Positions 8,776-41,552 are shown, counted from the stretch's first letter. The stretch: 64,000 bases of DNA from Pedosphaera parvula Ellin514 (GCF_000172555.1 NZ_ABOX02000007.1:62001-126000); one strand, 5' to 3'. Notes: generated by a model not told the origin, from the sequence alone. Numbers and translations: made by a program.

Positions 8776-8784
8776 GGTGACAAG

Positions 8785-20812: not shown

Positions 20813-21928
20813 ATGGTAAATAGCACAATCGAGCAAGGATTGAATCAACCACAGTCGGTTGCAAACAAAGCTCCGCTGAGCACTTGCTTTCCCATTTATC
20901 CCGCATCCTGGTATCTATTTTGCCATGAACGCGAATTGGCCAGTGGACCAGTTTCAAGGTCCATCCTTGGCAGGCGGCTGACTGCCTTCCAGACCGACAG
21001 CCGAAAGGTGGCGGTCATCGATGCACACTGTTCTCATTTGGGAGCCGATCTCGGTTGCGGGAAAGTCCTCGGTGAAACGATCCAGTGTCCATTTCACAAC
21101 TGGCGATACGAGTTGGATGGCCGTTGCAGCCATATTCCCAGCCAGGTTGAAATTCCAGCTTTCGCGCGACAAAAAACCTATCCTGTAGTCCGGCGTCACG
21201 GATACATATTTTTCTTCAATGGCCCGGAAGCTTTATTCCCCCTGCCCTTTTTTGCAAACTGCGAACCAGCAGATTATACCGCCGCCAACCCATTTCGTTT
21301 TGTCGCACACTGCACATGGTATATGACCGCGGCTCAGGGTTTCGATACCCAACATTATGAAGCAGTCCATGAGCGCAGATTATTGTCGCGCCCCGTCGTG
21401 GATACTCCCAGTCCATTGCTCCGTCGCAATCGTTATCGCGCAGAAGTAATCGGCCAAAGCATATTCGATCGCTTACTACGTCAGTTCGCTGGAGCCACAG
21501 TGGACATCACCATCGAGAACTGGGGAGGAACATTTATTTGTGTATCCGCCCTGTTCGAACGTGCGCACAGTCGCTTCATTGCCATTGGCCAACCCCTCGA
21601 GAATGGCACATCGCAAATTGAAGTAATTACCTACGCCTCGCGCGGCAGGAATCCTCTCAGCCGCAACCTGCTCGACCCATTGAGCCTTCGCTTGCGCAGA
21701 CTCTTTACGCATGCCCATTTAACCGGAGAAGCCAAACAGGTAATGCACACCCAATATCGCCCGGCAAATCTCATTTCAAGCGATGAGGATATGCTTCAGT
21801 GCTTCCAATGGCTGGCATCATTGCCGCAAAATAGGCACACACCATCGAAGAGCTTGACGCCAGCAAAAGCAGACATCCCGGCGCTTGATGAATCATTTGT
21901 TCACCGCAGCAAGATCCCCTTAACCTGA
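20813..21928 (+). CDS. Rieske [2Fe-2S] oxygenase-type protein
   Basis: A 371-residue protein with an N-terminal Rieske domain. The cluster ligands are in CSHLGADLG and CPFHNWRYELDG (Cys-x-His ... Cys-x2-His, near residues 72-95). The C-terminal part resembles the catalytic domain of ring-hydroxylating oxygenases, with DTQHYEAVHERRL as the likely mononuclear-iron segment (two His and an acidic residue). It would hydroxylate, desaturate or demethylate a lipid or aromatic substrate with oxygen and an external reductase; no reductase is encoded nearby. It is the first gene of the long plus-strand cluster, with GGAGAGG about 10 bases before the ATG. Confidence 0.82.
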   Translation: MVNSTIEQGLNQPQSVANKAPLSTCFPIYPASWYLFCHERELASGPVSRSILGRRLTAFQTDSRKVAVIDAHCSHLGADLGCGKVLGETIQCPFHNWRYELDGRCSHIPSQVEIPAFARQKTYPVVRRHGYIFFFNGPEALFPLPFFANCEPADYTAANPFRFVAHCTWYMTAAQGFDTQHYEAVHERRLLSRPVVDTPSPLLRRNRYRAEVIGQSIFDRLLRQFAGATVDITIENWGGTFICVSALFERAHSRFIAIGQPLENGTSQIEVITYASRGRNPLSRNLLDPLSLRLRRLFTHAHLTGEAKQVMHTQYRPANLISSDEDMLQCFQWLASLPQNRHTPSKSLTPAKADIPALDESFVHRSKIPLT

Positions 21929-21942
21929 GAACGCAAACCATT

Positions 21943-22548
21943 ATGAAGAGAATTCTTTTTTTTCTGATATTAGCCCTCACTTGCCTTGGAATCCCAAATC
22001 TCCGGTCTCAGCCCAACCTTTCTGTCGGTCGGGAAGATCCAGCGCACGCTGAGTTACGCCTGCTCCGTGATGGCTTGCTTGCAGCCATAAACAAAGGGGA
22101 TCTGGATGGCGTCCTCACCTACTTACATACCAATGTGGTTATCACCTGGCAAAACGCCGAGGTAAGCCGGGGGCATGCCGGCGTAAGGGCGTATTATGAG
22201 AGGGTCATGACGGGTCCAAATAAAATTGTCGAAAGTTTCAAATGCAACGTGAAGGTCGACGAACTGACCCGGCTTTATGGCACCAACACCGGAATTTGCT
22301 TCGGCAGCTCTGATGAGCACTACAAATTAACCAGCGGCATGGCCATGGACTTGAAAGGCCGCTGGACGGCGACACTCATCAGGGAGAACGGACGTTGGCT
22401 GGTTGCAAGCCTGCATGCTTCAACAAATCTTTTCGACAATCCCGTCCTGAACATGGCGAGGAAGTCAATTTATTTAAGTGGCGGCATCTGCTTGGTGATA
22501 GGCGTGTTGGTGGGATGGCTGGTGGGGCGCAAACGAAAGTCCACTTAA
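21943..22548 (+). CDS. Membrane-anchored SnoaL/NTF2-like protein
   Basis: A 201-residue protein with an N-terminal signal sequence (RILFFLILALTCLGIP) and a C-terminal transmembrane helix (ICLVIGVLVGWLVG) followed by basic residues. Between them is a SnoaL-like domain of about 120 residues: GLLAAINKGDLDGVLTYL, then NVVITW, RGHAGVRAYYERVM and RWTATLIRENGRWLV. The fold forms a cone-shaped pocket used by polyketide cyclases, isomerases and binding proteins. Topology puts the domain outside the cytoplasm. It lies 14 bp after the Rieske gene and overlaps no other real gene. Role in the cluster unknown. Confidence 0.7.
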   Translation: MKRILFFLILALTCLGIPNLRSQPNLSVGREDPAHAELRLLRDGLLAAINKGDLDGVLTYLHTNVVITWQNAEVSRGHAGVRAYYERVMTGPNKIVESFKCNVKVDELTRLYGTNTGICFGSSDEHYKLTSGMAMDLKGRWTATLIRENGRWLVASLHASTNLFDNPVLNMARKSIYLSGGICLVIGVLVGWLVGRKRKST

Positions 22549-22562
22549 CAAACAAACGACCA

Positions 22563-23600
22563 ATGTTTTTGGCAGGAAAAGCGGCTGAGGAAAGTGAAGA
22601 AACCATTCTTCTTCACGCCGAACAATGGCTCCAAAAGAGTGATCATGCCGAAATTACGACCAGGAACCTGCGGCAAATTTCCGAGATCCAAGGTATCGAT
22701 TTCGCCACTGCATTGCTTTACAAGCACATCGCACATTCGCCTCAGCATCGAGAGTTCGTCGCGCAAATCAATGCTCTACGCCAAGAGCCAATCAATGCTT
22801 CCAAAAAAGGTCATGCAACCCTCGCAGTTGTCCCCGGAGCTTTCTACGTCGAGCGTCCCGAAACGGGCGGCGATGGACGCTGGTTAATGGAGGGAGCTGA
22901 GACCCTCGGTTTGCAGTTTAAACGAATTCCTCTTTTAAGCGTCGGAACACTTAACGAAAATGCTGATATCTTATTACGTTGGCTCCGTGAACAGGCGGAC
23001 GAAAAAATCATTCTCATTTCGCTGAGCAAGGGCGGCGCGGACGTAAAGGCGGCTCTTCGCCGTCCAAATGCAGCTGAAGCTTTTAGCAGGGTTATCGCGT
23101 GGGTGAATGTTTGCGGGACGTTGAATGGCTCTCCCGCAGCAGATTGGCTTCTCGCACGCCCAATGTGGAAGCTGGTCTTCCGCTTCCTATACTGGCGGCG
23201 TAAGCGCGATTTTCAATTTATCCACGACCTTCGCCATCAAGTGGGCAGCCCTTTGGATTTCCAGCTCATCCCGCCCGTCGGAATGAGAATGATTAGCATC
23301 ATTGGCTTCCCATTACGTCGTCATCTGAGCCATGCCTATGCCCGACGATGCCACCATTCCATTTCAGCTCTTGGACCAAACGACAGCACGGTGCTGTTGG
23401 CAGATACTCTTTCATGGCCGGGGGTAATCTATCCCGTTTGGGGAGCAGACCACTATCTGCAACCAGAGCATAACACCCGCAATTTGATTTCGACGATCCT
23501 ACAGCATTTGGGTGACAAACTCGATTTGTTCACACCACAGCCGGGGAATGGAACAGCAGGCTCTTTAACCTCGAATCCTGAAATGGTGAATTCTCCATAA
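22563..23600 (+). CDS. Alpha/beta-hydrolase-like protein of the cluster
   Basis: A 345-residue protein starting MFLAGKAAEE. The frame is open further upstream but overlaps the previous gene without family-like sequence. The middle shows IILISLSKGGADVKAAL, a strand-nucleophile-helix arrangement of alpha/beta hydrolases (SLSKGG instead of GxSxGG), preceded by LAVVPGAFYVERPETGGDG. Near the end is VIYPVWGADHYLQPE, which would provide the catalytic His region. It may act as a thioesterase or esterase for the cluster product. The altered elbow glycine makes catalysis less certain. It sits 14 bp after the SnoaL-like gene. Confidence 0.55.
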   Translation: MFLAGKAAEESEETILLHAEQWLQKSDHAEITTRNLRQISEIQGIDFATALLYKHIAHSPQHREFVAQINALRQEPINASKKGHATLAVVPGAFYVERPETGGDGRWLMEGAETLGLQFKRIPLLSVGTLNENADILLRWLREQADEKIILISLSKGGADVKAALRRPNAAEAFSRVIAWVNVCGTLNGSPAADWLLARPMWKLVFRFLYWRRKRDFQFIHDLRHQVGSPLDFQLIPPVGMRMISIIGFPLRRHLSHAYARRCHHSISALGPNDSTVLLADTLSWPGVIYPVWGADHYLQPEHNTRNLISTILQHLGDKLDLFTPQPGNGTAGSLTSNPEMVNSP

Positions 23601-23751
23601 CAGACTCGTAGTCAGGATGAGCGATGCTGCCGATGATCTGAACATCGAAATAATTTCGTGCTCCATCAAAATAATCGAATGCCCTTCCGCCGTATTCCTC
23701 TTGATGCGTCGAAAGCAAAGCTTGTAACTTCCTTTCGTAACAAGAAGCCAT
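23530..23751 (-). CDS. Doubtful small divergent ORF
   Basis: A 73-residue minus-strand frame in the only sizeable gap (149 bp) of the cluster. It begins at an ATG that shares its bases with the first radical SAM gene's ATG. The residues RAFDYFDGARNYFDVQIIGS look protein-like, but the frame runs 71 bp into the hydrolase gene on the other strand and has no recognised family. It could be a remnant or chance. No cobalamin-riboswitch-like element was seen in this gap. Confidence 0.2.
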   Translation of the reverse strand: MASCYERKLQALLSTHQEEYGGRAFDYFDGARNYFDVQIIGSIAHPDYESVMENSPFQDSRLKSLLFHSPAVV

Positions 23752-25153
23752 GCAGGCCCAACGAAAACTCAGAATAGCCCTGGTCTCACCAAAGGGACCA
23801 CTCTATCGGCATCGTGGAGGCATTTTTAAAAAATCGCTTCGCTATCAGCCTCTCACCCTGACAACCTTGGCGGCATTGATTCCCGCAGAGCTAAACATGG
23901 AGGTTACACTTTTCGACGAAGGCATTTCTGATTTGCCGCTTGACCTTGACGTCGATCTCGTGGGCCTGACAGTGATTACAGGCACAGCGAAACGCGCATA
24001 CGAACTCGCCGACCATTTTCGGCAAAGGAGCATAATCGTGGTCATGGGCGGACCGCATGTCACCCTGATTCCCGAAGATGCTCAGCCTCACGCCGATGCC
24101 ATCGTGATAGGTTACGCGGAAGATACCTGGCCGCAGTTGCTGCGCGACTTTGCCGCGGGTTGTCTGGCTCCCCGCTACGATCAGGCACCGCAACTTAATC
24201 TGGCTGACCGCCCATTTCCGCGTCGGGACCTGTTACCCAGCCAGCGCTACCTAACCAACAATGTCTTTGAAGCGACTCGCGGCTGTGTGCACAGCTGTGA
24301 CTTCTGCGTTGTCCCGTCAGCCTGGGGGCGTAAACCATACCAAAAGCCTGTCGCGGATATCATCGCCGACATTCGCCAGCACGGCGCGCGCAAACTCATT
24401 TTCGTGGATCTAAACCTCATCGCCGATCGCGGCTATGCGCTGGAGTTGTTCGCAGCACTGATTCCCCTGCGTTTACAATGGTACGGTTTAGCCACCGTAT
24501 TGCTCGCAGAGGATCCGGAACTTCTAGAATTGGCTGCCCGCAGTGGTTGCAAGGGATTATTGATGGGCCTCGAGTCCATTTCCACGGCCAACCTGCGTCA
24601 AAGCCGCAAAGGATTTAACTCGCCTGACAAATTCTTTAACCTCGTCGAATCGCTCCATCAGCACGGCATAGCGCTGCAAGGATGCTTTGTTTTTGGACTG
24701 GATCATGATGAACCGGATGTTTTTCTGAAAACCGCCGAATTTGCCGTTCAAGCCCGCATTGACCTTCCCCGCTTTGCCATAGTCACTCCATTTCCCAATA
24801 CCAGTCTTTACAAAAGGTTGTTGGCCGAAGGGCGTATAGTCACCAAAAATTGGGAGTTGTACGATGGTCAGCACGTTGTCTTTCGGCCATTGCGTATGGG
24901 CGCAGAGGAGCTGCAAAAAGGAACTGAAGCAGCCTGGAAGCATACTTATAGCGCTCGCTCAATCGTCCGACGCATTCGCCACTCACCGGCTCCATGGCCG
25001 GTAAAGTTAGGCACCAACCTCGGCTATCGCTTCTACGCGCACAATCTTAGTCGCTTTTACAACTGCGACTGGATTATTGGTCAGACGGATGCGCCAATCA
25101 CCAAGGTGGCTTCCCCGACTGGTTCCCTTATAGCCACCCCCGATAGGCCATGA
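23750..25153 (+). CDS. B12-binding-type radical SAM protein 1
   Basis: A 467-residue protein with the N-terminal Rossmann-like domain of B12-binding radical SAM enzymes (residues about 8-140; LRIALVSPKGPL, DLVGLTVITGTA, VVMGGPHVTLIPED). The radical SAM barrel follows with TRGCVHSCDFCVV (Cys-x3-Cys-x2-Cys, near 179-186). Later strands show LIFVDLNLIADR, LLMGLESIS and FVFGLDHDEPDVF. The family does methylations, ring contractions and carbon-carbon couplings on unactivated carbons. It is the first of two such genes separated by 13 bp, and 149 bp follow the hydrolase gene. No obvious DxHxxG cobalamin His motif is seen, so B12 may bind base-off or not at all. Confidence 0.87.
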   Translation: MQAQRKLRIALVSPKGPLYRHRGGIFKKSLRYQPLTLTTLAALIPAELNMEVTLFDEGISDLPLDLDVDLVGLTVITGTAKRAYELADHFRQRSIIVVMGGPHVTLIPEDAQPHADAIVIGYAEDTWPQLLRDFAAGCLAPRYDQAPQLNLADRPFPRRDLLPSQRYLTNNVFEATRGCVHSCDFCVVPSAWGRKPYQKPVADIIADIRQHGARKLIFVDLNLIADRGYALELFAALIPLRLQWYGLATVLLAEDPELLELAARSGCKGLLMGLESISTANLRQSRKGFNSPDKFFNLVESLHQHGIALQGCFVFGLDHDEPDVFLKTAEFAVQARIDLPRFAIVTPFPNTSLYKRLLAEGRIVTKNWELYDGQHVVFRPLRMGAEELQKGTEAAWKHTYSARSIVRRIRHSPAPWPVKLGTNLGYRFYAHNLSRFYNCDWIIGQTDAPITKVASPTGSLIATPDRP

Positions 25154-25166
25154 GCCGCCATCCCTA

Positions 25167-26522
25167 ATGCGCTTAACGATTGTTCATCCATGCATCGGCA
25201 GACGTCCGGGACAGAGTTACATTCGCACCTGGCAAATGGAGCCATTGCCAGCGGCTACGCTCGCTGGATTAACGCCGAAGGATGTTGAAATACGTTTCTA
25301 CGATGATCGTATGGAGTCGATTCCTTACGATGAGCCCACCGACCTTGTAGCTCTCAGCGTGGAAACGTATACAGCAAAACGGGCGTATCAAATCGCGACG
25401 GAATATCGGAGGCGCAAGGTGCCAGTTGTCATGGGTGGATTTCACGCCAGTCTCTGTCCGGAGGAGGTGACACGTTACGCTGAGTCTGTTGTCTGCGGGG
25501 AGGCAGAACGGATATGGCCGCAGGTCATTGATGATGCGCGACACGGCTGTTTGCAAAAGCTCTATCAGCAAACCGGCCGCCCTTCGCTATCCGGTTTGCG
25601 GCCAAACAGAGCCATATTCCGGGGAAAACGGTATTTACCCATTGGACTGGTGGAAGCTGGACGAGGTTGTCATTTCAAATGCGAATTTTGCGCCGTACAA
25701 ACCGTATTTAACTCCAACCAAACTCGCCGTCCCATCGATGAAATCCTCGAGGAAATCAGGACGTTAAAGAACGAAAAGAAGCTGTTCTTTTTCGTGGACG
25801 ATAACATCACTTCCAACCTGGCCGAAGCCAAGGAGTTCTTTCGCGCACTTATCCCACTGAACATCCGTTGGGTCAGCCAGTCGAGTATCAATGCGGCGCA
25901 TGACGATGAGTTTCTGGAGTTGCTTGTGCGTAGCGGTTGCCAGGGTGTACTGATAGGTTTCGAAAGCCTAAACCCTGCGAACCTGCGCAAAATGAACAAG
26001 AGTTTCAACACGATGCGAGGTGGCTTTGAGCAGGCATTGGCGAATTTGCGCCGTCACCGTGTTCGGGTTTACGGCACGTTTGTCTTCGGTTACGACGGTG
26101 ACACTCCGGAGAGTTTTGGAGAAACAGTTGAATTTGCCCAAAGACACGCACTCTATATCGCCGCGTTTAATCATCTCACGCCATTTCCCGGCACACCGCT
26201 ATATCAGCGCCTGCAGGCAGAAGATCGTTTGCTTTATGAGGCATGGTGGCTCGATGACAATTACAGCTATAACAAAATACCGTTTCGCCCAATCGGCATG
26301 ACTCCGGAAGCATTGCAAAAAAACTGTCTTGCCGCCCGGCGCAAATTCTATTCATGGCCCAGCATTCTCAAACGCAGCTGCGACCAGGTGAACAGGGATA
26401 ACTGGTTTATGTGGCGAAACTTTTATCTCATCAACGGACTGCATCGGAACGATGTCAGCCTGCGCGACCATTATCCATTGGGAGACGAATCATGGCAGGG
26501 ACAATTATTGCTGGCGCAGTAA
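25167..26522 (+). CDS. B12-binding-type radical SAM protein 2
   Basis: A 451-residue relative of the preceding protein with the same layout: N-terminal B12-binding-like domain (MRLTIVHPCIGRRPG, LVALSVETYTAKRAY, VVMGGFHASLCPEEV), then the cluster motif AGRGCHFKCEFCAVQ near residues 165-176, FFVDDNITSN and LIGFESLNPANL. The similar length and architecture suggest a tandem duplication that has diverged. Each copy may act on a different position of the chain or they may form a pair. The 3' end overlaps the next gene by 31 bp, indicating translational coupling within the cluster. Confidence 0.87.
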   Translation: MRLTIVHPCIGRRPGQSYIRTWQMEPLPAATLAGLTPKDVEIRFYDDRMESIPYDEPTDLVALSVETYTAKRAYQIATEYRRRKVPVVMGGFHASLCPEEVTRYAESVVCGEAERIWPQVIDDARHGCLQKLYQQTGRPSLSGLRPNRAIFRGKRYLPIGLVEAGRGCHFKCEFCAVQTVFNSNQTRRPIDEILEEIRTLKNEKKLFFFVDDNITSNLAEAKEFFRALIPLNIRWVSQSSINAAHDDEFLELLVRSGCQGVLIGFESLNPANLRKMNKSFNTMRGGFEQALANLRRHRVRVYGTFVFGYDGDTPESFGETVEFAQRHALYIAAFNHLTPFPGTPLYQRLQAEDRLLYEAWWLDDNYSYNKIPFRPIGMTPEALQKNCLAARRKFYSWPSILKRSCDQVNRDNWFMWRNFYLINGLHRNDVSLRDHYPLGDESWQGQLLLAQ

Positions 26523-27673
26523 AGCCCAAAATCACTCAAGGCGTCACATTTTTTCTGGCTGCTAAAAGTGATGACGCAGAAATCCGCCAATTATTGCGTG
26601 AGACCGCGATGAATGGCGAGGTGCAACTCTCGCTTGAACGCGAACCGGATTTTTTCGAAGACATTCCGTATCTTGGCGAGCAGAAAACGACCGTTATCGC
26701 TCGCGAGGGAAATCGACTGGTGTGCGTGGGCAGTTGCTCAATCCGTTCCCGCTTTGTAAATGGAAAACCGCAACGTGTTGGTTATCTCACGGGATTGCGC
26801 CTTAACGCCAAATCTGCCGGTCGTTTTGATGTGTTACGGCGCGGCTACCGCTTCTTTTCTGAACTTCAAAAATCCGAACAAGCCGACTGCTACTTCACCA
26901 GCATTGCGGAGGGAAATGAACGGGCCATTCAATTTCTCGAGCGCGGTCTGCCCGGCATGCCGGTCTATAAGTTTCTATGCGGCTTTGCAACACTCTTAAT
27001 TCCAGTTCCCCGCGGTGTAAAAGGTCAAAGCAAAGCGAACGCCAAATCGCAATTCTTCACCGGAGGGAATGGCTGGCAGATCAGCCCGGGACAAGAACAG
27101 GATGTAGCTGAACTTTGCGCAGGCCTGAACTCTCAGGCTCACGATTATCAACTTTCCCCCTGCTGGACTCCCGACAATATCGCCGCGTTAAAACATTTGG
27201 GACTTGGGTTGAAGGACTTTTGCATTGTCCGGGAAAATCAACGAATGATTGCCTGTGCAGCGGTTTGGGACCAGCGCTCGTTTAAACAGACCGTGGTTCG
27301 TGGTTATAGTCGGAGACTTGCTTTCATCAGGCCTTGGATAAACGCAGCGGCATTTATGGCTGGTCGTCCAGGGATGCCTTCAGTCGGTTTAACTTTGGCG
27401 CACGCCCCGGTTTGTCATCTGATGGTTGCTGAAGACCAACCAGCCATTTTAGTCGCTTTAATCAAGGAGCTTTTTCTAAAGGCTGCGAGCAAACAAATCG
27501 AGTTTTTGACTCTCGGCTTCGCAGCGGGCGATCCAAGATTGCAAACTGTCCTTTCCAACTTTCCTCATCATCAATACAAGAGCCGCCTTTACACTGTGCG
27601 CTGGCCCGGAACTGACAGGGCAGAGCCTTCTCCCATTGATGGCCGACTCAGCCCGGAGGTGGCATTGCTATGA
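26492..27673 (+). CDS. GNAT-fold acyltransferase-like protein
   Basis: A 393-residue protein starting MAGTIIAGAVKPK; an earlier in-frame ATG at 26411 lies deep inside the radical SAM gene. The N-terminal half reads as a GNAT domain: FFLAAKSDDAEIRQLLRE, then VIAREGNRLVCVG, the strand YLTGLRLNAKSAGRF with the turn expected before the CoA-binding helix, and TSIAEGNERAIQFLERG. The C-terminal half (about 200-393) looks like a second, degenerate copy. This two-GNAT arrangement occurs in uncharacterised proteins. It probably transfers an acyl or aminoacyl group to a lipid intermediate, but the substrate is unknown. It overlaps both neighbours. Confidence 0.6.
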   Translation: MAGTIIAGAVKPKITQGVTFFLAAKSDDAEIRQLLRETAMNGEVQLSLEREPDFFEDIPYLGEQKTTVIAREGNRLVCVGSCSIRSRFVNGKPQRVGYLTGLRLNAKSAGRFDVLRRGYRFFSELQKSEQADCYFTSIAEGNERAIQFLERGLPGMPVYKFLCGFATLLIPVPRGVKGQSKANAKSQFFTGGNGWQISPGQEQDVAELCAGLNSQAHDYQLSPCWTPDNIAALKHLGLGLKDFCIVRENQRMIACAAVWDQRSFKQTVVRGYSRRLAFIRPWINAAAFMAGRPGMPSVGLTLAHAPVCHLMVAEDQPAILVALIKELFLKAASKQIEFLTLGFAAGDPRLQTVLSNFPHHQYKSRLYTVRWPGTDRAEPSPIDGRLSPEVALL

Positions 27674-28404
27674 AGGCCATGAAATCTGAAATAGCGCATG
27701 AAGTTGTCTCGCGAGCAGCTCTAACACGAGTTCAAACGCAGGGAATGTACGATTTGCTAGCTTCGTATTTCGAAGGAGTATCTCCTGAACAATTCGCGTT
27801 TGATCTCGCGGAAAAAAACTGGGTCATCTTGCTTATGCGCGGTCCCCGTCTCGTCGGTTTCTCGACCTTGCTGGTGTATGAGACCACGTTTGAGCAGGAA
27901 CCGCTCAGTGTGGTTTATTCAGGGGATACGATTGTAGCCCCCGAAGCTTGGGGAAGCATGGCCCTGCCCCGCATCTGGATCGCATCAATAAATCAACTTC
28001 GAAAAGTGTTTCCGCGAGGACGTTATTACTGGTTACTCCTCACTTCCGGCTTTCGCACCTACCGATTTCTTCCAGTGTTCTGGCGGGAATTTTACCCACG
28101 TTTTGATTATCCGACGCCGAGAAATCCAAAAGCCCTCCTTGACCACCTCGCCCGCGAACGGTTTGGCACACAATATGATTCTCAACTGGGCATCGTTCGG
28201 TTTGCCCATCCGCAACAACTGCGGGGCGAAATGAATCAAATACCCAAAGCCAGAATGACAGATCCACATGTCGTATTCTTCTCGCATCGCAATACCGGCT
28301 ACGGGCGTGGAGATGAATTGGTGTGCCTGACTGAACTTGCTTCAGCAAATCTAACCGCAGCAGGGCACCGCATGGTTGATTCGAAACTTTTGTGCATCCC
28401 ATAG
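27670..28404 (+). CDS. Uncharacterised GNAT-like protein of the cluster
   Basis: A 244-residue protein, not firmly recognised. It starts 4 bp inside the previous gene (ATGA overlap) and ends 13 bp inside the GH3 gene, so it is coupled to both. Segments such as NWVILLMRGPRLVGFSTLLV, then VYSGDTIVAPEAWGSMALP and YYWLLLTSGFRTYRFLPVFW look like the central sheet of an acyltransferase with a substrate-dependent helix. The C-terminus (DPHVVFFSHRNTGYGRGDEL) is hydrophilic. No signal or membrane helix. An acyltransferase role is only a guess from fold impression and from the neighbouring GNAT gene. Confidence 0.45.
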   Translation: MKAMKSEIAHEVVSRAALTRVQTQGMYDLLASYFEGVSPEQFAFDLAEKNWVILLMRGPRLVGFSTLLVYETTFEQEPLSVVYSGDTIVAPEAWGSMALPRIWIASINQLRKVFPRGRYYWLLLTSGFRTYRFLPVFWREFYPRFDYPTPRNPKALLDHLARERFGTQYDSQLGIVRFAHPQQLRGEMNQIPKARMTDPHVVFFSHRNTGYGRGDELVCLTELASANLTAAGHRMVDSKLLCIP

Positions 28405-30032: not shown

Positions 30033-30055
30033 TGTGAGATGAATTCCAACAACAA

Positions 30056-33798: not shown

Positions 33799-33810
33799 GG
33801 AAGCTGATCC

Positions 33811-34095: not shown

Positions 34096-35404
34096 TATCA
34101 TCCATCCAGCTCATTACCGCGACGATGGCACAGTGGTTCAAGCCAAGGGCTGGATCGACCGTCTGGGTGCTTACCTTCCTCATTTGGGTCCGCCGTTGTT
34201 GGCCGCATTGACCCCAGACCGTCATGAAGTCCGACTGACGGAGGAATATCTCGAGGACATAGATTTTGAAAGCGATGCGGATGTGGTGGCCCTTTCCGGT
34301 CAGATCATGCAGTTTGATCGCTGCAAGGATATCTCTGCAAAATTCCGCGCTCGTGGAAAAAAGACCGTGCTCGGTGGATATCTTCCTTCAATGCTGCCGG
34401 ATCGAGTGGAAGGGTTTTTCGATGCCATTGTCCTGGGAGAAGGCGACGAAATCTGGCCGGAAATCTTGAATGACATCGAACAGGGAAAACTGAAGAAACG
34501 CTATCAATCCACTCGATCGGTCGATATCAGCAACCTGCCAATCCCCCGCTATGACTTGATCAAGAAAGATCGTTTGGTGGTTTATCCGGTTCAAGCCACG
34601 CGCGGCTGCCCGTTTACCTGTAACTACTGCTCCATTGCCGCCGTGCATCAGGGGGCGCATCGTAAACGTCCCGTCGAGCAGATCCTCCGTGACATCGACG
34701 CCACCGGTAGCCGCAACATCAACATCTGCGACGATAACCTATGTGAAGACATCCGCTTTGCTGACCGACTTTTCACTGCCATGGCCGGAAGCCCAGTCCG
34801 CTGGGGAACGCAAACCACCATCAATGTCGCCCGGCATCCCGGATTGCTGCAAAAAGCACGGGCGTCTGGCTGCACCCTCATGGCGCTCGGCGTGGAAACA
34901 TTTTCCGTAAAGAACCTCGAGGACGTAAACAAGACCTTTCACGCCGTCGACAAATATGCCGAAGGATTCCGCCGCATCATGGATGCCGGCATCAGCCCTC
35001 ATGCGCTTATCATTTTCGGACTGCCAGACGATAAGCCCGATACTTTTAAGAAAACGGTCGATTACCTGGAAAATCTTAAAGTGCCGGTTGCTCAAATTTT
35101 TATTCTCACCCCTTATCCCGGCACGCCGATGGGAGATCGGATTCATCGAACGGGAAATGTTTTTGATCAGGAACTCAGTCATCTTCGCGAGCCCTACGTG
35201 GTCTTTAAACCCGACGTGCTGACACCAGACCAGCTCAAGGAAGGCTGGTGGGGCGCCTTGGAACAATTCTATTCCCTCCGTTCCATCTTCAAGCGCATCA
35301 TCATGCGTCGGACTCCAAATAATCTTTTGGTCAATCTTGCTACAAATCTTTACTACTGGTCAAAAGTAAAACGTGGCATTCATCCAGTCTACTTCGGGTT
35401 CTAA
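34085..35404 (+). CDS. B12-binding-type radical SAM protein 3
   Basis: A 439-residue protein with the same two-part design as the two earlier genes: N-terminal B12-binding-like domain (MKIDIIHPAHYRDDG, DVVALSGQIMQFDRC, TVLGGYLPSMLPD) and a radical SAM barrel with ATRGCPFTCNYCSIAA (cluster Cys near 174-181), ICDDNLCEDIRFA and MALGVETFSVKNLEDV. It is the shortest of the three and separated from them by seven genes, so it is probably an independent step and not part of the tandem. The C-terminal helices (FKRIIMRRTPNNLLVNLATN) resemble the other two. Its end overlaps the possible longer start of KS2. Confidence 0.87.
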   Translation: MKIDIIHPAHYRDDGTVVQAKGWIDRLGAYLPHLGPPLLAALTPDRHEVRLTEEYLEDIDFESDADVVALSGQIMQFDRCKDISAKFRARGKKTVLGGYLPSMLPDRVEGFFDAIVLGEGDEIWPEILNDIEQGKLKKRYQSTRSVDISNLPIPRYDLIKKDRLVVYPVQATRGCPFTCNYCSIAAVHQGAHRKRPVEQILRDIDATGSRNINICDDNLCEDIRFADRLFTAMAGSPVRWGTQTTINVARHPGLLQKARASGCTLMALGVETFSVKNLEDVNKTFHAVDKYAEGFRRIMDAGISPHALIIFGLPDDKPDTFKKTVDYLENLKVPVAQIFILTPYPGTPMGDRIHRTGNVFDQELSHLREPYVVFKPDVLTPDQLKEGWWGALEQFYSLRSIFKRIIMRRTPNNLLVNLATNLYYWSKVKRGIHPVYFGF

Positions 35405-35444
35405 ACCGTGCTCTCGAAACCTCTCAATATATCCAGGCAATAGG

Positions 35445-36182
35445 ATGTGCTATCTCGTCGCCTCAACAATAGTTGAAAGCATCGCCCCAGTGCAGGAAAG
35501 CGATCCGGAGCTTTGGCGTCAGATTCGTCGATATAATCTGCCAGTCCAGTTGGCTTTGACTGCCGCTCATGAAACCGCGAAGACCGCTGAAAATCCAGCG
35601 AGCGCTGCCTTGTTCTCGTTGGCTCCATGCCAATCTGGCTCCCTGGATTTGCATCGCTGGACGCGCCTCGCGGCAACTGCCGGGCAGGACGGGCATATCG
35701 GCCATCTCCGGGTCAATCCAACCCACACCCTCCATGCCGTAGATAATCTGGCTCTATCCGCTTTCGCCATCATGCATCGCAATCATGAACACTGCCTTGG
35801 ATTGGGCGGTGCTGCAGGCCAGGCCTGGTGCGGACTGGAAGCCTTGCACGAGCGCCTCAGGGATGGAAACGAAACCGAAGCATTTTTGATCGCCGGAGAT
35901 CAGGCAGATGACCAGGGCACAACCGGCTCGGGTATTGCCCTGCTCTTCTCCAAAAGTCCAAAACCTTATGTTCCACTCGGACGTTTGGTAAAGCTGGTCG
36001 CGGTGCAACGGGTTCGCCTGGACACACCAGCCGCACTGGAACCCCATGCTGCGGCAGGCCTGATTTCTCTTGTTGCTGTTATTGGCAACCACAAAACCGG
36101 CCGGCTCTCCTACACCGTTCCTTCGAATCACGGCAACGGCATGGACTTGATAACTGTCGAGATGGAGTTCTCACGATCATGA
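35445..36182 (+). CDS. Truncated ketosynthase-like protein without active-site Cys (KS2)
   Basis: A 245-residue protein matching only the N-terminal half of a ketosynthase (the 'ketoacyl-synt_2' type seen in aryl polyene clusters). The expected ACASG region reads GLGGAAGQAWCG, so the catalytic Cys is missing at its normal place, and the HGTGT and GHxxGAxG half is absent. The family layout (LALTAAHETA, RLAATAG, HTLHAVDNL, FLIAGDQADDQG) is otherwise clear. Such proteins act as chain-length-factor-like partners of an active ketosynthase. The active partner would be KS3, which starts 4 bp inside this gene. The start is the ATG at 35445. Confidence 0.72.
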   Translation: MCYLVASTIVESIAPVQESDPELWRQIRRYNLPVQLALTAAHETAKTAENPASAALFSLAPCQSGSLDLHRWTRLAATAGQDGHIGHLRVNPTHTLHAVDNLALSAFAIMHRNHEHCLGLGGAAGQAWCGLEALHERLRDGNETEAFLIAGDQADDQGTTGSGIALLFSKSPKPYVPLGRLVKLVAVQRVRLDTPAALEPHAAAGLISLVAVIGNHKTGRLSYTVPSNHGNGMDLITVEMEFSRS

Positions 36183-37327
36183 TTGCGAACCGCGTTTTCA
36201 TCACCGGCACAGGCGCTATCTCTGCATTGGGAACGAGCACCGACGCGTTGTGGAACGGGCTTCTCTCGAGTCGCAGCGGTGTGCGAAGTCTTCCTCGATT
36301 TGTTGTCGCCGGGCTGCCCATGACAACCGGCGGTGAAGTGGATGCAGCGTCCCATGATCAGATTAACCGTGATGAAGTCATCGCGGGCCTTGTTATCGAT
36401 GAGGCTCTCTCAGTTGCCGGTTTGCAATCTGATTCAGTCGGATTCGTATGGGCAACCGGCCTGGATACCTTTCAAATCGGCTCGGAGGGGCTCGCTCTTC
36501 GTTCTGCAGGAGCTTGTTTCAATGCTCTTGCCCGGAGGTTCTGCGCACCTCGACGCATGATTGCTACCGCATGTGCGTCGGGCACCCAGGCCATTGGTGA
36601 AGCATTCCAAATTTTACGACGCGGACACTGCGACGCCATTGTCGCTGGCGGCTCAAGCGTCATGCTCACCCCGTTCTATTTGATTGGCTTCGCTGGTCTG
36701 CAGGCAATCGCTGTGGATCAACCAGGAGAAGATCCGGTTACTGCCTGTCGCCCTTTCGACAAGCGGCGCCGAGGATTTGCTCTGGGAGATGGAGCAGGAG
36801 CGCTGGTTCTGGAGACTCTCGCTTCAGCCCGAAAACGCGGCGCGACTTTGCTGGCTGAAATCACCGGATTCGGCACCAGCCAGGACGCCTTTGATTTGAA
36901 CCGCCCTCCTGAAAATGGTGCCGGGGCTGAACTCAGCATGCGACGCGCCCTGGAGGATGCCTGTCTTCGCCCTGCCGACATCGGAGCCATCAATGCGCAT
37001 GGCACCGGAACCTTTGCCGGCGATCTTGCCGAAGCTGCTGCCTTGCGAAGTCTCTTTGGCAATAACCGTGTCCCGGTTTCCAGCGTTAAGGGAGCCATCG
37101 GTCATACCATGGCCGCGGCCGGTGCGTTGGAGGCCATTGTGGCACTTAAGACTTGCACCACGGGCATCATTCCTCCCACGGTTAATCTAACTGAACCGGG
37201 CGAAGGCTGCGAACTTCACCATGTGATCGGCAAACCCATCAGTGCCGCAGCCCAAACTGTTTTGTCGGTTTCCTTTGGGATGGGCGGGCAGAATGCAGCG
37301 CTTATACTTGCGAATGTATCGAGTTGA
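36179..37327 (+). CDS. Beta-ketoacyl-ACP synthase, canonical triad (KS3)
   Basis: A 382-residue FabF/FabB-type condensing enzyme with a complete Cys-His-His triad: TACASGTQAIGEA (Cys near 132), NAHGTGTFAGDLAE (His near 274) and VKGAIGHTMAAAGALEAI (His near 308). It extends acyl chains by two carbons from malonyl-ACP. Translation is coupled to the Cys-less KS2 (ATGA overlap), and a carrier protein starts immediately after its stop. This is the KS/partner/ACP order of heterodimeric type II systems. Most likely the catalytic condensing unit of the cluster. Confidence 0.9.
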   Translation: MIANRVFITGTGAISALGTSTDALWNGLLSSRSGVRSLPRFVVAGLPMTTGGEVDAASHDQINRDEVIAGLVIDEALSVAGLQSDSVGFVWATGLDTFQIGSEGLALRSAGACFNALARRFCAPRRMIATACASGTQAIGEAFQILRRGHCDAIVAGGSSVMLTPFYLIGFAGLQAIAVDQPGEDPVTACRPFDKRRRGFALGDGAGALVLETLASARKRGATLLAEITGFGTSQDAFDLNRPPENGAGAELSMRRALEDACLRPADIGAINAHGTGTFAGDLAEAAALRSLFGNNRVPVSSVKGAIGHTMAAAGALEAIVALKTCTTGIIPPTVNLTEPGEGCELHHVIGKPISAAAQTVLSVSFGMGGQNAALILANVSS

Positions 37328-37750
37328 ATGGATATGAAAGACCAAAACATTTTGGATGTCGTTTCGGCATCGGTTCGCACCACACTCGGCCTCAGAGATA
37401 ACGAACCGGTCCGACCTGACCAACTGCTCTTTTATGACTTTGCCTTCACCTCCATGGACATGCTCGATTTGATGTTCCGGATGGAGGAACATTTCAAAAT
37501 CATGATTCCTGAAGAAACCTTATATGGATTGGCAAAAGGTGATCTCGCAGAAAATGAGTTTGCCAATGAAGGAGTGCTGACAACAACGGGCCGGGAACGT
37601 TTGATGAGTCTTTTGCACGATTCGCCTCGGGAGATTTTTCCAGAGCGCATCCATGTGAAAACTTTTCCCCGATATTGCACCGTCGGGGCCATGGTCCGAC
37701 TGGTGGAACATCAAATTACAATCAAAGAACAAGTCAGATGTTCGAGTTGA
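37328..37750 (+). CDS. Acyl carrier protein with C-terminal extension (ACP2)
   Basis: A 140-residue protein. The first 80 residues are an acyl carrier domain with the attachment Ser in FAFTSMDMLDLMFRMEEHF (near residue 42; the usual Asp before Ser is Thr). A 55-residue extension follows, rich in charged residues (GRERLMSLLHDSPREIFPERIH), which is uncommon for stand-alone carriers. It starts one base after the KS3 stop and overlaps the dehydratase gene by 13 bp. The extension may dock to a partner; similar long carriers are known in other type II clusters, but I cannot assign a partner. Confidence 0.78.
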   Translation: MDMKDQNILDVVSASVRTTLGLRDNEPVRPDQLLFYDFAFTSMDMLDLMFRMEEHFKIMIPEETLYGLAKGDLAENEFANEGVLTTTGRERLMSLLHDSPREIFPERIHVKTFPRYCTVGAMVRLVEHQITIKEQVRCSS

Positions 37751-38196
37751 TTCAATCCATCTCCGTCCAAGCTGAAGCAGGCAGAGCCTCCGGCAAGGCG
37801 TCCGTGCCTGCCGATCATCCGTTGTTGGCCGATCATTTTCCCGGCATGCCGATCCTGCCGGGTTCATTTCTCGTGGAGTTGGCTTCGCAGATTGCCGGCC
37901 CGCTGGCAGAAGAGGTGGTCAAGCTTCATCATGGCTTTGATCGTTGGGCCATTCCCGGAATGATTCGGAATCTAAAATTCCTCGGTCCGTCCAGCTTGCC
38001 TTCCCAACTTTCAATTTCCGTAGCAGTCCTCCGCCATGAGGCCTCGAATGTCCTGCTTGATGTTACGGCGGAACAAAATTCCGAGCTGATTCTGCGGGGC
38101 GAATTGGTCATGATGATGATTGAAACTTCTTCAGCCTGGGACGAAGCAATCACGGCACGCAACAATCGCTTGGCGAAATGGAAAGCTGCCTCATGA
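37738..38196 (+). CDS. FabZ/ApeI-like 3-hydroxyacyl-ACP dehydratase
   Basis: A 152-residue hotdog-fold dehydratase. The active-site segment is LLADHFPGMPILPGSFLVELASQIAG, described by its His in DHFPG (near residue 34) and Glu in VELASQ (near residue 47), both of the FabZ type. It would dehydrate the hydroxyacyl chain made by the SDR. The ATG at 37738 is chosen; earlier in-frame starts lie inside ACP2. It completes an elongation module (KS2, KS3, ACP2, dehydratase) and overlaps the next acyltransferase gene by 4-19 bp. No enoyl reductase of the FabI type is present, so products may stay unsaturated. Confidence 0.83.
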   Translation: MFELIQSISVQAEAGRASGKASVPADHPLLADHFPGMPILPGSFLVELASQIAGPLAEEVVKLHHGFDRWAIPGMIRNLKFLGPSSLPSQLSISVAVLRHEASNVLLDVTAEQNSELILRGELVMMMIETSSAWDEAITARNNRLAKWKAAS

Positions 38197-39521
38197 CCGG
38201 CACAAAACCAATCCAACATCCCCTTTCACCTGCAGATGCCTTTTTTGTGGCCTATCAGCAAGGCTCGGGAATCCTCATGCAACTCGGCTTTGAACTGGAA
38301 CTTGAGGGCGCGATAAGACGAACGGACCTGGAAGGCATGCTTCTACATCTGGTTGGCCGCTGGCCACAATTAGGACAGAAAGTTCGCCATCAAGGTCTGG
38401 GACTTGTCTGGGATGGCGCTTGTCATGTGGAAGAAATGTTGAATGTGGCATCGGATGAGGCGCTGCTGAAAGAATGGCGCAATCTGCCGTTGGACCCATT
38501 TTGTGAACCGCCCTTTCAACTTCTATGGTTCGCTAACAGCCAAACACATCGACTGGTGGTGCGCGCCCACCATGCCGTGATGGATGGTGAAGCAATGTTG
38601 ACAGTATATTTGGAAATGATGAGATTTTTGTCTCGTTCAGTGGGGGGACAGTCCTTGCTTCCCCCAGTGGCAGTACTACCTGCAAAACCGATGAGCGCGG
38701 TCGAGTTACTCGCTCCGCTTTGTTCTTCAGAAGCGTGGGATCACCTCCGACGCATGTCCAGGCAAGCAAAAGCTAATGTCTCAGCTCGCCTTGCCGTACG
38801 CAGCTACGCTCCCGGACCGACTGCCACCTGCGAGCGGTTGTTGGAGGGAGAGGGTCTCAAAATGCTGTCAGAGTTGGCTGCGATCAACCGAACCCAACCA
38901 CTCTGGCTCTGCGCCGCAGCCTGGATGCGATCGCTCAATGGTTGGAATCGAGCCTCCAACAAAGGATCCAATCCAATCATTTCTTTGGAGTTTCCAGTGA
39001 GCTTGCGCCGCCACAAGGCTTCCCGTGAACTTCTCGGAAATCTGGTTTCCCCGTTGATTCTGTCTGGCGATGCGACCCAATGCGTGGGCACGCTTGCCAA
39101 CGCGCTTAAGCGGCAGTTCATCGGCGCGATTCGTCAACGTCAGCATCTGGCGTTGCCGCAGCTTATGTGTCCGTTGCGCTTTTTGCCTTGGACATTGTTT
39201 CGTCGCCTGGTCATGACACCCCTCGCCACCGGCGCGGCCACCAGCCACTTTACATGGCACGAAAATGAAAACGATCGCTCCTCCAATGTATCGGAATGGT
39301 CCCATGGCCGCCTGCAAATCACAAATCGTCGTATCTACACACCGGTCTGCCTGCATATGGGAACCGCCCTCGTAGTGGTATCCACAAATAATTCGCTGCT
39401 ATTCTCCATCACGTATCGGCTGAGCGCACTTTCTGCTGAAGATGCCGACAAACTCGCCGACTTGCTACAGGCCGAACTCATGCGCTCACCCATGGCACTG
39501 ACACACCAGGATGCAAACTAA
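38193..39521 (+). CDS. Condensation-fold (HHxxxDG) acyltransferase
   Basis: A 442-residue member of the CoA-dependent acyltransferase/condensation superfamily. The catalytic motif is HHAVMDGEAML near residues 126-136. The opening (HPLSPADAFFVAYQ) recalls wax ester synthase/diacylglycerol acyltransferase and Pap-type enzymes. It would move an acyl group from carrier or CoA to an alcohol or amine, so it is a candidate for the final esterification of the cluster lipid. The ATG at 38193 gives the family-like N-terminus; one at 38178 adds five residues. It overlaps the dehydratase gene and, by 11 bp, the flavin enzyme gene. Confidence 0.8.
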   Translation: MTGTKPIQHPLSPADAFFVAYQQGSGILMQLGFELELEGAIRRTDLEGMLLHLVGRWPQLGQKVRHQGLGLVWDGACHVEEMLNVASDEALLKEWRNLPLDPFCEPPFQLLWFANSQTHRLVVRAHHAVMDGEAMLTVYLEMMRFLSRSVGGQSLLPPVAVLPAKPMSAVELLAPLCSSEAWDHLRRMSRQAKANVSARLAVRSYAPGPTATCERLLEGEGLKMLSELAAINRTQPLWLCAAAWMRSLNGWNRASNKGSNPIISLEFPVSLRRHKASRELLGNLVSPLILSGDATQCVGTLANALKRQFIGAIRQRQHLALPQLMCPLRFLPWTLFRRLVMTPLATGAATSHFTWHENENDRSSNVSEWSHGRLQITNRRIYTPVCLHMGTALVVVSTNNSLLFSITYRLSALSAEDADKLADLLQAELMRSPMALTHQDAN

Positions 39522-40590
39522 GCGTCAGTCGCATGTCATCATCATTGGCGCCGGCCCGGCGGGGCTCGGAGTTGCCGCTTGTCTCGCCCGGAAGGATATC
39601 CCATTTACACTGCTGGAACGCGGTCCCGCCATCCTCACTGGACTCCGACAGGTAGATCCGGCGATGACTCTTCTCTCCCCTGCCCGACTTTCCCGCTTGC
39701 CTGGTATGGAATTGGAAAAGGGAACTCCAACCTATCTAAGATTCAGTGATCTGCTGAGTGAACTGCAATGCTACGTCCAGCAAAACAATCTTTCAGTTCG
39801 CACAGATTCCGAGGTCGTTTCAATCCGGCATGGTTCCGAAGGTTTTTCGGTGCAACTCAGAAGCTCGGCCGGCATCACCGAAAGCATCCTTGGTAGCCAT
39901 GTTATTAACGCCACGGGAATCATCAGTGCCCCACAACTCCCTGAAAACTTTAATCCCGCAGAATGTTCCTTTCGCTGGCTGCACAGTTTGGAAACCCGCA
40001 TCTCGCATCTCAAATCTTCCCGTCGTCTCCTCGTCGTTGGCGGGGGTCCATCAGCGGCTGAGGTGCTGAACAACTGGCTCGAAGTAAGACGTGATGAAGA
40101 TCGCACCTGGCTTTCCTTGCGCTCCCCACTGGTTGCCCTGCCGCACCGGGTCTTTGGCATCGATGTGCATTACTTCGGCTGGCTGCCGGAACACTTTCCA
40201 ACCCGGTTTCTTGGAAATCGATCCATTACGGTTCGGGAACCAATGCTTGGCCGTGAGATTCCGCGCGCCATCAACCGCGGCCGGATCAGCCGTGTAGCAG
40301 CCGTTCTACGCTATGAGGGCAGCGGAGTAATCATGAAAGATGCCACTCAATTAGAACCCGACCTGGTGGTATTTGCCACCGGCTTTAGTTACTCATCCAG
40401 CCACTTGGGCGACCTCGTTGATTACAATGCATTGGGACAACCCATTGCGCGCGCTTGTGAAAGCACCCGCACGCGACGCCTTTACCTTTTGGGGCTTCCC
40501 CGTGGAAGAACTTTTGCCTCGCACTATCTGCGTGGGACCGCACGCGATTCTGAATACGTGGCCAAACGCATCATGAAGGATCAACCATGA
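39511..40590 (+). CDS. FAD-dependent monooxygenase-like oxidoreductase
   Basis: A 359-residue flavoprotein with two nucleotide-binding loops: IIIGAGPAGLGVAACLARKD for FAD at the N-terminus and LLVVGGGPSAAEVLNNW near residue 175 for NAD(P)H, then VFATGFSYSSSH, the ATG motif of flavin monooxygenases. It belongs to the broad class of FMO, Baeyer-Villiger and N-hydroxylating enzymes; the substrate is unknown. Overlapping start and end codons with both neighbours (11 and 4 bp) tie it to the cluster. Oxygenation or epoxidation of the lipid chain is a fair guess. Confidence 0.82.
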   Translation: MQTKRQSHVIIIGAGPAGLGVAACLARKDIPFTLLERGPAILTGLRQVDPAMTLLSPARLSRLPGMELEKGTPTYLRFSDLLSELQCYVQQNNLSVRTDSEVVSIRHGSEGFSVQLRSSAGITESILGSHVINATGIISAPQLPENFNPAECSFRWLHSLETRISHLKSSRRLLVVGGGPSAAEVLNNWLEVRRDEDRTWLSLRSPLVALPHRVFGIDVHYFGWLPEHFPTRFLGNRSITVREPMLGREIPRAINRGRISRVAAVLRYEGSGVIMKDATQLEPDLVVFATGFSYSSSHLGDLVDYNALGQPIARACESTRTRRLYLLGLPRGRTFASHYLRGTARDSEYVAKRIMKDQP

Positions 40591-41552
40591 AAACGGCTCA
40601 GGTAATCGGCTTTGGGGGAGTGGACCGAATTCAAATCATTGATGTGCCCGCTCCCAAGCCGGGCATAGGTGAGGTGCTGATCCGTATCAAAGCATGTGGT
40701 CTCAATGGTTCCGACATTTTGCAGCGTGAAGGAATTTATCCTGGCGGACCGAAGCCCCCCTTCTTTCCGGGATCAGAGGCGGCTGGCATCGTGGAGATGC
40801 ATGGCAGCGGCGTAAATGGGCCACCAATTGGAACAGCAGTCACCTTTCTGACCAGCGGTGGAGCGCACGCCGAGTTCGCAACGGTCAAAGCTGATAGCTG
40901 CATTCCATTGCCGGAAACGTTGACCTTCGTCGAAGGGGCTGCGTTTCCTGTTCACTATCTGACAGCCTATCATGCGCTCACTACCGTGGCTCATGCCAAA
41001 CCGGGAGAAACTGTTGTAATCCACGCTGCTGCGGGTGGCTTGGGTACGGCAGCTGTCCAGATCGCCCGGATATTAGGGCTCAAAATCCTCGCCACTGCCT
41101 CCACTCCTGAAAAACGCAGACGTGTAGTCGAACTCGGTGCCGACTTAGCGGTCGATTACTCAGACTTCGAATCCGCATGCCGCGATCTGACAGGCGGGAA
41201 CGGCCCGGCACTTATCCTCGACTCCATTGGTGGTGATATCTTTCGCCGCAGTCTCGCACTCCTGCCTCCGCTTGGCCGTTTAGTGGTGATGAGTATTTCC
41301 AGCAATGAAACACCAAAAATTGACGCGGCATCATTATTGTTCCGCTCCAAGTCGGTCTCCGGTATTCACCTGAGTGCATTGCTGACTCAACGCGAGTTAA
41401 TCCGCAGATCGTTGGAAGAACTGATGAATTGGATTGGCGCAGGAAAAATAAGGATTCAAGTTGGACACACCCTGCCATTGGCTTCTCTCCGTGAAGCCCA
41501 CACGCTTCTGGCCAGCCGCAAAAGCTATGGGAAAATTGTTCTAACGACCTGA
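40587..41552 (+). CDS. Quinone-oxidoreductase-type MDR reductase
   Basis: A 321-residue medium-chain dehydrogenase/reductase without the zinc-ligand cysteines, so of the quinone oxidoreductase/enoyl reductase kind. Visible motifs are IKACGLNGSDILQREGIYPG near the N-terminus, FFPGSEAAGIV, and the NADPH loop HAAAGGLGTAAVQIA near residues 149-163. In polyketide and fatty-acid pathways related MDR enzymes reduce enoyl groups, so this may fill the missing enoyl-reductase step. It is the last gene of the block, overlapping the flavin enzyme by 4 bp. After its stop the cluster gives way to a decayed integrase region. Confidence 0.85.
   Translation: MKTAQVIGFGGVDRIQIIDVPAPKPGIGEVLIRIKACGLNGSDILQREGIYPGGPKPPFFPGSEAAGIVEMHGSGVNGPPIGTAVTFLTSGGAHAEFATVKADSCIPLPETLTFVEGAAFPVHYLTAYHALTTVAHAKPGETVVIHAAAGGLGTAAVQIARILGLKILATASTPEKRRRVVELGADLAVDYSDFESACRDLTGGNGPALILDSIGGDIFRRSLALLPPLGRLVVMSISSNETPKIDAASLLFRSKSVSGIHLSALLTQRELIRRSLEELMNWIGAGKIRIQVGHTLPLASLREAHTLLASRKSYGKIVLTT

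Follow-up and report, generated by a model that had tools for sequence, protein, structure and literature searches.

Two adjoining gene modules with radical SAM enzymes in Pedosphaera parvula Ellin514, very probably of separate histories

We analyzed a window of 64,000 nucleotides from the 7.4-Mb draft genome of Pedosphaera parvula Ellin514 (NZ_ABOX02000007.1, 62001-126000) and, within it, a block of genes at 20813-41552, counted from the first nucleotide of the window. An initial annotation, made from the sequence alone, had described the block as one large lipid/polyketide-type cluster with four radical S-adenosylmethionine (SAM) enzymes. The block was confirmed as a single run of 20 plus-strand open reading frames (ORFs), g01 to g20, at the predicted positions (Table 1). 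Their tight packing was also borne out, as at 17 of the 19 internal junctions the neighboring genes overlap or lie 0-28 bp apart. The two exceptions are a 149-bp gap 5′ of position 23750 and an apparent 154-bp overlap between g02 and g03, which vanishes when a later ATG is chosen for g03. Four of the encoded proteins are radical SAM proteins, and three of these are B12-binding (Pfam, NCBIfam). The gene content stood as first described. The idea of one 20-gene cluster did not, because relatives hold either g01-g08 (with desaturase/PAP2 genes) or g09-g20, and none was found with both. The block very probably consists of two biosynthetic modules with separate histories, module A (g01-g08) and module B (g09-g20), which now lie 23 bp apart on one strand. 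The genomes compared were drafts and in part samples, and all functions given here for the two modules are predictions from sequence. Numbers with L and G denote loci and genomes in the comparison.

Module A recurs as a conserved unit, both in many Verrucomicrobiota and on a plasmid of Citrobacter. Its core consists of two B12-binding radical SAM enzymes, two GNAT-family proteins and a GH3 protein, usually with desaturase/PAP2 genes and sometimes with Rieske, SnoaL and alpha/beta-hydrolase genes. When the order was searched with the GH3 protein, matches of at least 51% identity were found in 14 other genomes and matches of about 42% in two more. The g07-type GNAT gene preceded the GH3 gene in all 16 GH3-bearing contigs of the order that were fetched. 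In 12 of the 16, homologs of g05, g06, g07 and g08 were adjacent and accompanied by at least part of g04, and in 10 all five were full length; the remaining four were cut by contig ends or had no g04 (L070, L076). None of the 16 contigs carried g09-g20. In a 289-genome sample of the phylum, g05 had matches at E <1e-90 in 13 other genomes, with g05, g06, g07 and g08 together on 11 of the 13 contigs. The most conserved genes of the module within the order encode the two radical SAM proteins (76-83% identity for g04 and 78-84% for g05, versus 43-69% for the GNAT and GH3 proteins). In a tree, the g04 and g05 proteins formed two supported groups with largely matching branching.

In a congener (G001), the Rieske, SnoaL, hydrolase and desaturase genes and g04-g07 lie on one contig, and g07 with the GH3 gene on another. 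Module B was not found in this genome. The flanks of module A in G001 showed no synteny with the flanks in the window, so that no empty site for module B could be demonstrated. An additional radical SAM family (F7) is represented once or twice in five deeper-branching module A loci (L098, L101, L103, L105, L108), and some of these loci also carry a Tes/HMPTM-like radical SAM protein, an amidohydrolase or a further transferase-like protein. From the added radical SAM genes, module A seems to grow by gaining radical enzymes.

Outside the phylum, an IncF plasmid of Citrobacter portucalensis (L081, NZ_CP134684.1, locus 11361-23456) carries a module A homolog of about 12 kb. Its gene order is GNAT, GH3, two B12-binding radical SAM genes (59% identical to g04 and 61% to g05), GNAT, two more B12-binding radical SAM genes, PAP2, SnoaL-like, a fifth B12-binding radical SAM gene and desaturase. 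Two of its three additional B12-binding radical SAM proteins pair in the tree with copies from one verrucomicrobial locus. This plasmid was the only plasmid record in the collection bearing Citrobacter module DNA, and no close copy was present in the Escherichia coli genomes searched. A Burkholderia replicon has GNAT, GNAT, desaturase, GH3 and Rieske genes, and Acinetobacter baumannii (L083, NZ_CP064203.1, locus 6278-13957) has the order EmrA/EmrB, GNAT, GH3, TolC, GNAT; in both, the families were partly read by eye and there is no B12-binding radical SAM gene. The GNAT and GH3 proteins of Acinetobacter are distantly related to g06-g08, and the EmrA/EmrB/TolC-like genes beside them hint at an exported amide product. 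As these two sets lack B12-binding radical SAM genes, the constant part of the module is GNAT, GH3 and GNAT. The radical and oxygen-dependent enzymes of module A look like tailoring enzymes.

Module B was found as a conserved unit of its own in one further genome, the metagenome-assembled genome of Pedosphaera sp. RYN_627 (G005), which was the only true relative returned by a scan of genome contigs with two peptide patterns. There, g09-g19 are collinear with the window copy and share one strand, up to the end of the contig, which falls within g19. The locus does not contain g01-g08, and no match to GH3 or g05 was found in the G005 genome. Identity between the window and G005 is about 90% for g11 and g13 and 57-80% for the other module B genes. 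The nonsynonymous divergence (dN) was 0.07 for g11 and g13, versus 0.14-0.34 for five other module B genes tested, with synonymous divergence (dS) saturated. In the tree, g13 sits on an isolated long branch with only the G005 copy (89% identical), and its other matches in the order are 36-37% identical. The plasmids searched contained neither g09 nor a close module B, and the viral contigs searched contained no match to g13.

Gene sets of partly similar content occur in other Verrucomicrobiota (L032, L035-L038), where tandem Tes/TrsS-like radical SAM genes lie with ketosynthase (KS), ketoreductase (KR) and dehydratase (DH) genes, and there are no g13-like B12-binding radical SAM genes. The pairing of a Tes-type enzyme with dedicated type II elongation thus occurs repeatedly. 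When L039 is included, most of the loci with tandem Tes/TrsS-like genes have type II fatty acid synthase (FAS-II) genes, and two of the Tes/TrsS-like copies read have an in-frame stop near the C-terminus, perhaps selenocysteine or a plain gene end. In G005, a set resembling those for aryl polyenes and flexirubins was read by eye about 8 kb from module B (G005:C149:17000-40000, L005/L006). It comprises KS, chain-length-factor-like, FabZ, MMPL fused to an LpxL-like acyltransferase, LolA-like and AMP ligase genes.

Table 1. Genes of the two modules and of the adjoining minus-strand pair, in window positions
Feature	Position	Strand	Basis
PAP2-family lipid phosphatase-like protein	19019..19693	-	Pfam PAP2
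Membrane fatty-acid-desaturase-family oxygenase	19690..20670	-	Pfam FA_desaturase, 80.7 bits
g01, accessory, Rieske oxygenase	20813..21928	+	Pfam Rieske
g02, accessory, SnoaL/NTF2-fold protein	21943..22548	+	Pfam SnoaL_2/SnoaL_3
g03, accessory, alpha/beta-hydrolase-like	22395..23600	+	Four-homolog profile
g04, core, B12-binding radical SAM enzyme 1	23750..25153	+	Pfam B12-binding and Radical_SAM
g05, core, B12-binding radical SAM enzyme 2	25167..26522	+	Pfam B12-binding and Radical_SAM
g06, core, GNAT-family acyltransferase-like	26411..27673	+	Homologs, profile, synteny
g07, core, second GNAT-like acyltransferase	27670..28404	+	Pfam Acetyltransf_9, under cut-off
g08, core, predicted GH3-type acyl-adenylate amide synthetase	28392..30032	+	Pfam GH3
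g09, ketosynthase-like with extra C-terminal part	30056..31486	+	hhalign to KS profile
g10, FabG-type ketoreductase	31446..32243	+	Pfam/NCBIfam; 80% identical in G005
g11, Tes/TrsS-like radical SAM enzyme	32272..33798	+	7TOL match, E 3e-59
g12, putative acyl carrier protein	33811..34095	+	Size, sequence, position; candidate Ser in PFSS
g13, B12-binding radical SAM enzyme 3, non-orthologous to g04/g05	34085..35404	+	Pfam/NCBIfam
g14, protein of 247-269 amino acids	35373..36182	+	64% identical in G005
g15, FabF-type ketosynthase	36179..37327	+	Family matches; FabF 314 bits
g16, acyl carrier protein with C-terminal extension	37328..37750	+	Pfam PP-binding above cut-off; 60% identical in G005
g17, FabA/FabZ-like dehydratase	37675..38196	+	Pfam/NCBIfam; 57% identical in G005
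g18, condensation/WS-DGAT-like acyltransferase, HHxxxDG present	38178..39521	+	Weak Pfam/NCBIfam matches
g19, flavin monooxygenase-like (ArsO/FMO)	39511..40590	+	Pfam/NCBIfam; 59% identical in G005
g20, PIG3-type medium-chain dehydrogenase/reductase (MDR)	40587..41552	+	Pfam/NCBIfam; beyond contig end in G005

Most of the family assignments of the initial annotation held. The Rieske, GH3 and FAD monooxygenase-like families were recovered with Pfam and NCBIfam. The three proteins with B12-binding and radical SAM domains (starting at 23750, 25167 and 34085) were found as predicted, the B12 domain of the third scoring under the Pfam cut-off. In all three GH3 domains of g08 the score exceeded the cut-off of 23.6 bits (N, M and C domains, 161, 70 and 28 bits), and its relatives among structures are plant GH3 structures. 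For the two proteins called GNAT-like, g07 was confirmed as such with a match below cut-off, and its homologs are present in Citrobacter, Burkholderia and Acinetobacter; g06 gained its support through homologs. The Citrobacter homolog of g06 passes Pfam Acetyltransf_1, 3 of 11 homologs have a GNAT match, the g06 profile matches AAC(6')-Ih, and the position of the gene is syntenic. The start of g06 is probably at 26492.

Two accessory genes, g02 and g03, were additions to the initial list. The g02 protein has a signal-like N-terminus and a C-terminal hydrophobic anchor, and its gene is syntenic in L064, L071, L116 and Citrobacter. The true start of g03 is probably the ATG at 22515 or 22563. Its four-homolog profile matches carboxylesterase MGS0156 (E 1.6e-6) and BlEst2, and SKG, Asp and His are invariant. 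The Rieske protein g01, syntenic in L063, L064, L071 and L116, shows the Rieske CxH/CxxH motif and a D-x2-H-x4-H iron motif, with KshA as its closest solved relative.

The functional neighborhood reaches left beyond g01, outside the block as first delimited, to a minus-strand desaturase/PAP2 pair 142 bp from the Rieske gene. Both genes travel with module A in L063, L064, L071 and L078 and belong to it; there, the PAP2 gene adjoins the desaturase gene, and the desaturase homologs are 63-67% identical. More distant desaturase homologs are in L077, L096, L116 and Citrobacter. Farther left, at 17880-18810, an ADP-ribosylglycohydrolase is divided between two overlapping frames whose Pfam matches follow one another along the profile, which looks like a frameshift or a sequence error. 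A tRNA-Leu at 42273 was considered as an integration site, and no second copy of the tRNA 3′ end was found in the window. Promoter and terminator scans of 20600-30200 gave hits no more numerous than in shuffled sequence.

The complete type II elongation set of the initial annotation stood in part. The FabF-type KS, FabG-type KR, PP-binding acyl carrier protein, FabA/Z-type DH and PIG3-type MDR were recovered. The supposed second KS, g09, is only KS-like, and the supposed second carrier, g12 (66% identical in G005), has a plausible Ser but no Pfam or NCBIfam match. In g09 (60% identical in G005), hhalign to the KS profile gave 97% over residues 65-302, and PRK06147 scored 43 bits. It keeps Cys129 and one His, has QGSG in place of HGTGT, and its C-terminal part is unmatched. 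The other KS, g15, has complete Cys-His-Lys-His motifs and a shortened N-terminal half. Its neighbor g14 had no family match and was negative with hhalign against the KS profile; that it is a partner subunit of g15 is a guess. Alignments of two sequences each gave AlphaFold models of g14 and g09 that were too poor for fold searches (mean predicted local distance difference test scores, pLDDT, of 42 and 38). The condensation-fold acyltransferase of the initial annotation, g18, retains HHxxxDG, with a weak fold match: its G005 homolog (60% identical) scores 20.1 bits against a condensation cut-off of 30.6. A role of g20 as a trans-acting enoyl reductase is possible.

The Tes-like radical SAM protein predicted for the block, g11, was confirmed as Tes/TrsS-like with an HMPTM zinc ribbon. 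It retains the rubredoxin motif C-x2-C-x20-C-x2-H, the Cys/His of the N-terminal cluster, CxxxCxxC, the C-terminal cluster Cys and Tyr459. In g11, as in most of its Verrucomicrobiota relatives, His takes the place of the labile Met439 of Tes.

For module A, the best fit would be the synthesis of an amino lipid whose chain is altered by B12-binding radical SAM enzymes. The GH3 protein g08 would activate a fatty or alicyclic carboxylate to an acyl-AMP and couple it, through an amide bond, to an amino acid or amine. Additional acyl groups may come from the GNAT proteins and the alpha/beta-hydrolase, in the way that OlsI acts after OlsH. Unactivated carbons of the chain could be methylated or changed in another way by the two B12-binding radical SAM enzymes, with the desaturase, the Rieske protein and PAP2 completing the lipid. 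In module B, the ketosynthases, two carriers, KR, DH and MDR would build a dedicated acyl chain. On this chain g11 is predicted to abstract hydrogen from saturated carbons and create a C-C (or C-S) bond in a Tes-type reaction; that g09-g20 make a chain on which such radical chemistry takes place is the natural reading of the gene set. The same chain may be modified by g13 and released by the condensation-like acyltransferase g18. In this genome, the product of module B may feed the GH3 or GNAT proteins of module A, a link less certain than any other step. The initial annotation proposed aliphatic-chain chemistry by radical SAM enzymes, which is still the best reading. We regard the individual steps as tentative, with the better ones approaching an even chance, and the whole explanation, two modules with these functions, as slightly favored.

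Several points weigh against this explanation. The similarity of the GH3 protein to OlsH lies far under the model cut-off (55.7 versus 620 bits), and no carrier protein is encoded in module A. For module B there is a single relative, in which the contig stops short of g20, and g12 and g14 have no family match. With His in place of Met439, the auxiliary cluster of g11 may work differently. For a functional link between A and B the basis is a single genome, and their adjacency may be chance after transfer.

The initial annotation implied one pathway, in which B supplies the chain, the Tes-like and three B12-binding radical SAM enzymes couple, cyclize or methylate it, and the GH3 and GNAT proteins cap a single lipid or polyketide. 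The same-strand 23-bp gap between g08 and g09, with overlapping genes on either side, suggests co-transcription of the two modules. A distant Tes/HMPTM-like radical SAM protein is encoded inside the module A region of L101, L105 and L108 in Verrucomicrobiota, and one genome (G652) combines module A on one contig with the closest other Tes-like protein on another. However, the Tes-like proteins within other module A regions are just 22-25% identical to g11, the adjacency of A and B is seen in the window alone, and synteny in relatives, the check proposed at the outset, holds for each module and not for the whole block: module A occurs without B in all relatives seen, module B occurs without A in G005, and both are complete nowhere else found. 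A single pathway appears unlikely. It is likewise rather improbable that in this bacterium A and B jointly make a new class of bacterial lipid, with chains built on acyl carrier proteins, joined or cyclized by Tes-type chemistry, methylated by B12-binding radical SAM enzymes and closed by a GH3 amide. If true, this would place Tes-type sp3-sp3 C-C coupling in a dedicated type II synthase and not on finished ether lipids.

Alternatively, module B could be a highly reducing type II polyketide synthase (PKS) that makes an alicyclic (cyclopentane-type) or polyene acid, with g15-g14 as counterparts of AmcF-AmcG and the GH3 protein conjugating an amino acid. The g15 protein aligns end to end with the AmcF model, to which g09 has a weak match, g14 is without known motifs, as is AmcG (PMC10698177), and g08 belongs to the kind of GH3 protein that is known to conjugate acids with amino acids. 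The score of g15 (217 bits) is under the AmcF cut-off of 325 and the FabF model fits it better, no AmcH-type ligase or aminotransferase is present, hhalign gave no KS fold in g14, and synteny assigns the GH3 gene to module A; this reading is distinctly improbable. A ladderane-like lipid pathway, proposed in anammox bacteria and invoked as an analogy in the initial annotation, has in its favor the FAS-II genes and several B12-binding radical SAM genes in one block, but the matches to the TIGR04072 model are far under its cut-off, Tes-like and GH3 proteins are not named in the anammox set, and an anaerobic pathway is ill-matched with an oxygen-dependent Rieske protein and desaturase, so that this reading is very remote.

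The two-module reading gives each module an interest of its own. Module A appears to be an undescribed, mobile, phylum-wide radical SAM/GH3 lipid module, and its presence in a cultured Citrobacter strain, C. portucalensis 64A:C, makes the product open to a direct search by mass spectrometry. In module B, the metal sites of a Tes-like enzyme are intact and its gene belongs to a dedicated type II elongation cluster. Tes chemistry is established for archaeal tetraethers and suspected for bacterial membrane-spanning lipids, and module B lets one ask whether it also acts on carrier-bound chains. A search of open-licence literature found no published description of either module.

We compared the modules with known systems and rejected membership in the ladderane, aryl polyene and cispentacin classes. 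Aryl polyene and flexirubin clusters have genes for aryl starter supply, MMPL/LolA-type export and lipid linkage. None of these is in g09-g20, and such genes were near module B only in G005, read by eye. The initial exclusion of a standard FAS, aryl polyene, flexirubin or hopanoid cluster stands. Like the anammox ladderane candidate clusters (PMC2649909), the block brings together FAS-II genes, divergent KS paralogs and B12-binding radical SAM genes. Unlike them, it has no gene for a phytoene-desaturase-like flavoprotein, a feature of the anammox/Desulfotalea clusters (PMC2649909), and its only flavoprotein, g19, is FMO/ArsO-like. The three B12-binding radical SAM proteins scored 74, 69 and 55 bits with TIGR04072 (cut-off 360), and no protein in the genome was above the cut-off. 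With the cispentacin/coronafacic acid type II PKS (AmcF-AmcG; PMC10698177), module B shares a short FabF-like KS beside a motif-less protein and a dedicated acyl carrier protein. It differs in having no AmcH ligase (no ligase at all among g09-g20) or AmcC aminotransferase, in its full KR/DH/enoyl reductase-type set and in its radical enzymes; the AmcF model used was NF058662.

Module B resembles the Verrucomicrobiota clusters L032 and L035-L038 in combining a Tes/TrsS-like enzyme with KS, KR and DH. It has a single, not tandem, Tes/TrsS-like copy and adds a B12-binding radical SAM enzyme and condensation-like, FMO and MDR proteins. The archaeal tetraether lipid synthase Tes/GDGT-MAS, which links lipid tails through sp3-sp3 C-C bonds, is MJ0619 (PDB 7TOL; PMC9433317, PMC8941075). 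The g11 protein is like Tes in its full-length alignment, Cys/His metal ligands, rubredoxin-motif spacing and catalytic Tyr459. It is unlike Tes in its His at the position of Met439 and in the location of its gene, which is in a type II elongation cluster and not among ether-lipid genes. Its scores were 272 bits for Tes (NF045702, cut-off 450) and 286 bits for TrsS (NF045646, radical SAM (seleno)proteins, cut-off 490).

The bacterial GH3 protein OlsH forms N-acyl ornithine from ATP, fatty acid and ornithine, and the alpha/beta-hydrolase OlsI then adds a second acyl chain, in a GH3-dependent ornithine-lipid pathway of Planctomycetota (PMC12493201). With the OlsH model (NF052613), g08 scored 55.7 bits and its homologs 43-55 bits, under the cut-off of 620. 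The OlsH operon includes the O-acyltransferase OlsI; in module A, g03 is alpha/beta-hydrolase-like, but its type is absent from many module A loci. Compared with OlsH/OlsI, module A adds two or more B12-binding radical SAM enzymes, two GNAT proteins, a desaturase, PAP2 and a Rieske protein. The comparisons with Tes and OlsH are more informative than the ladderane analogy.

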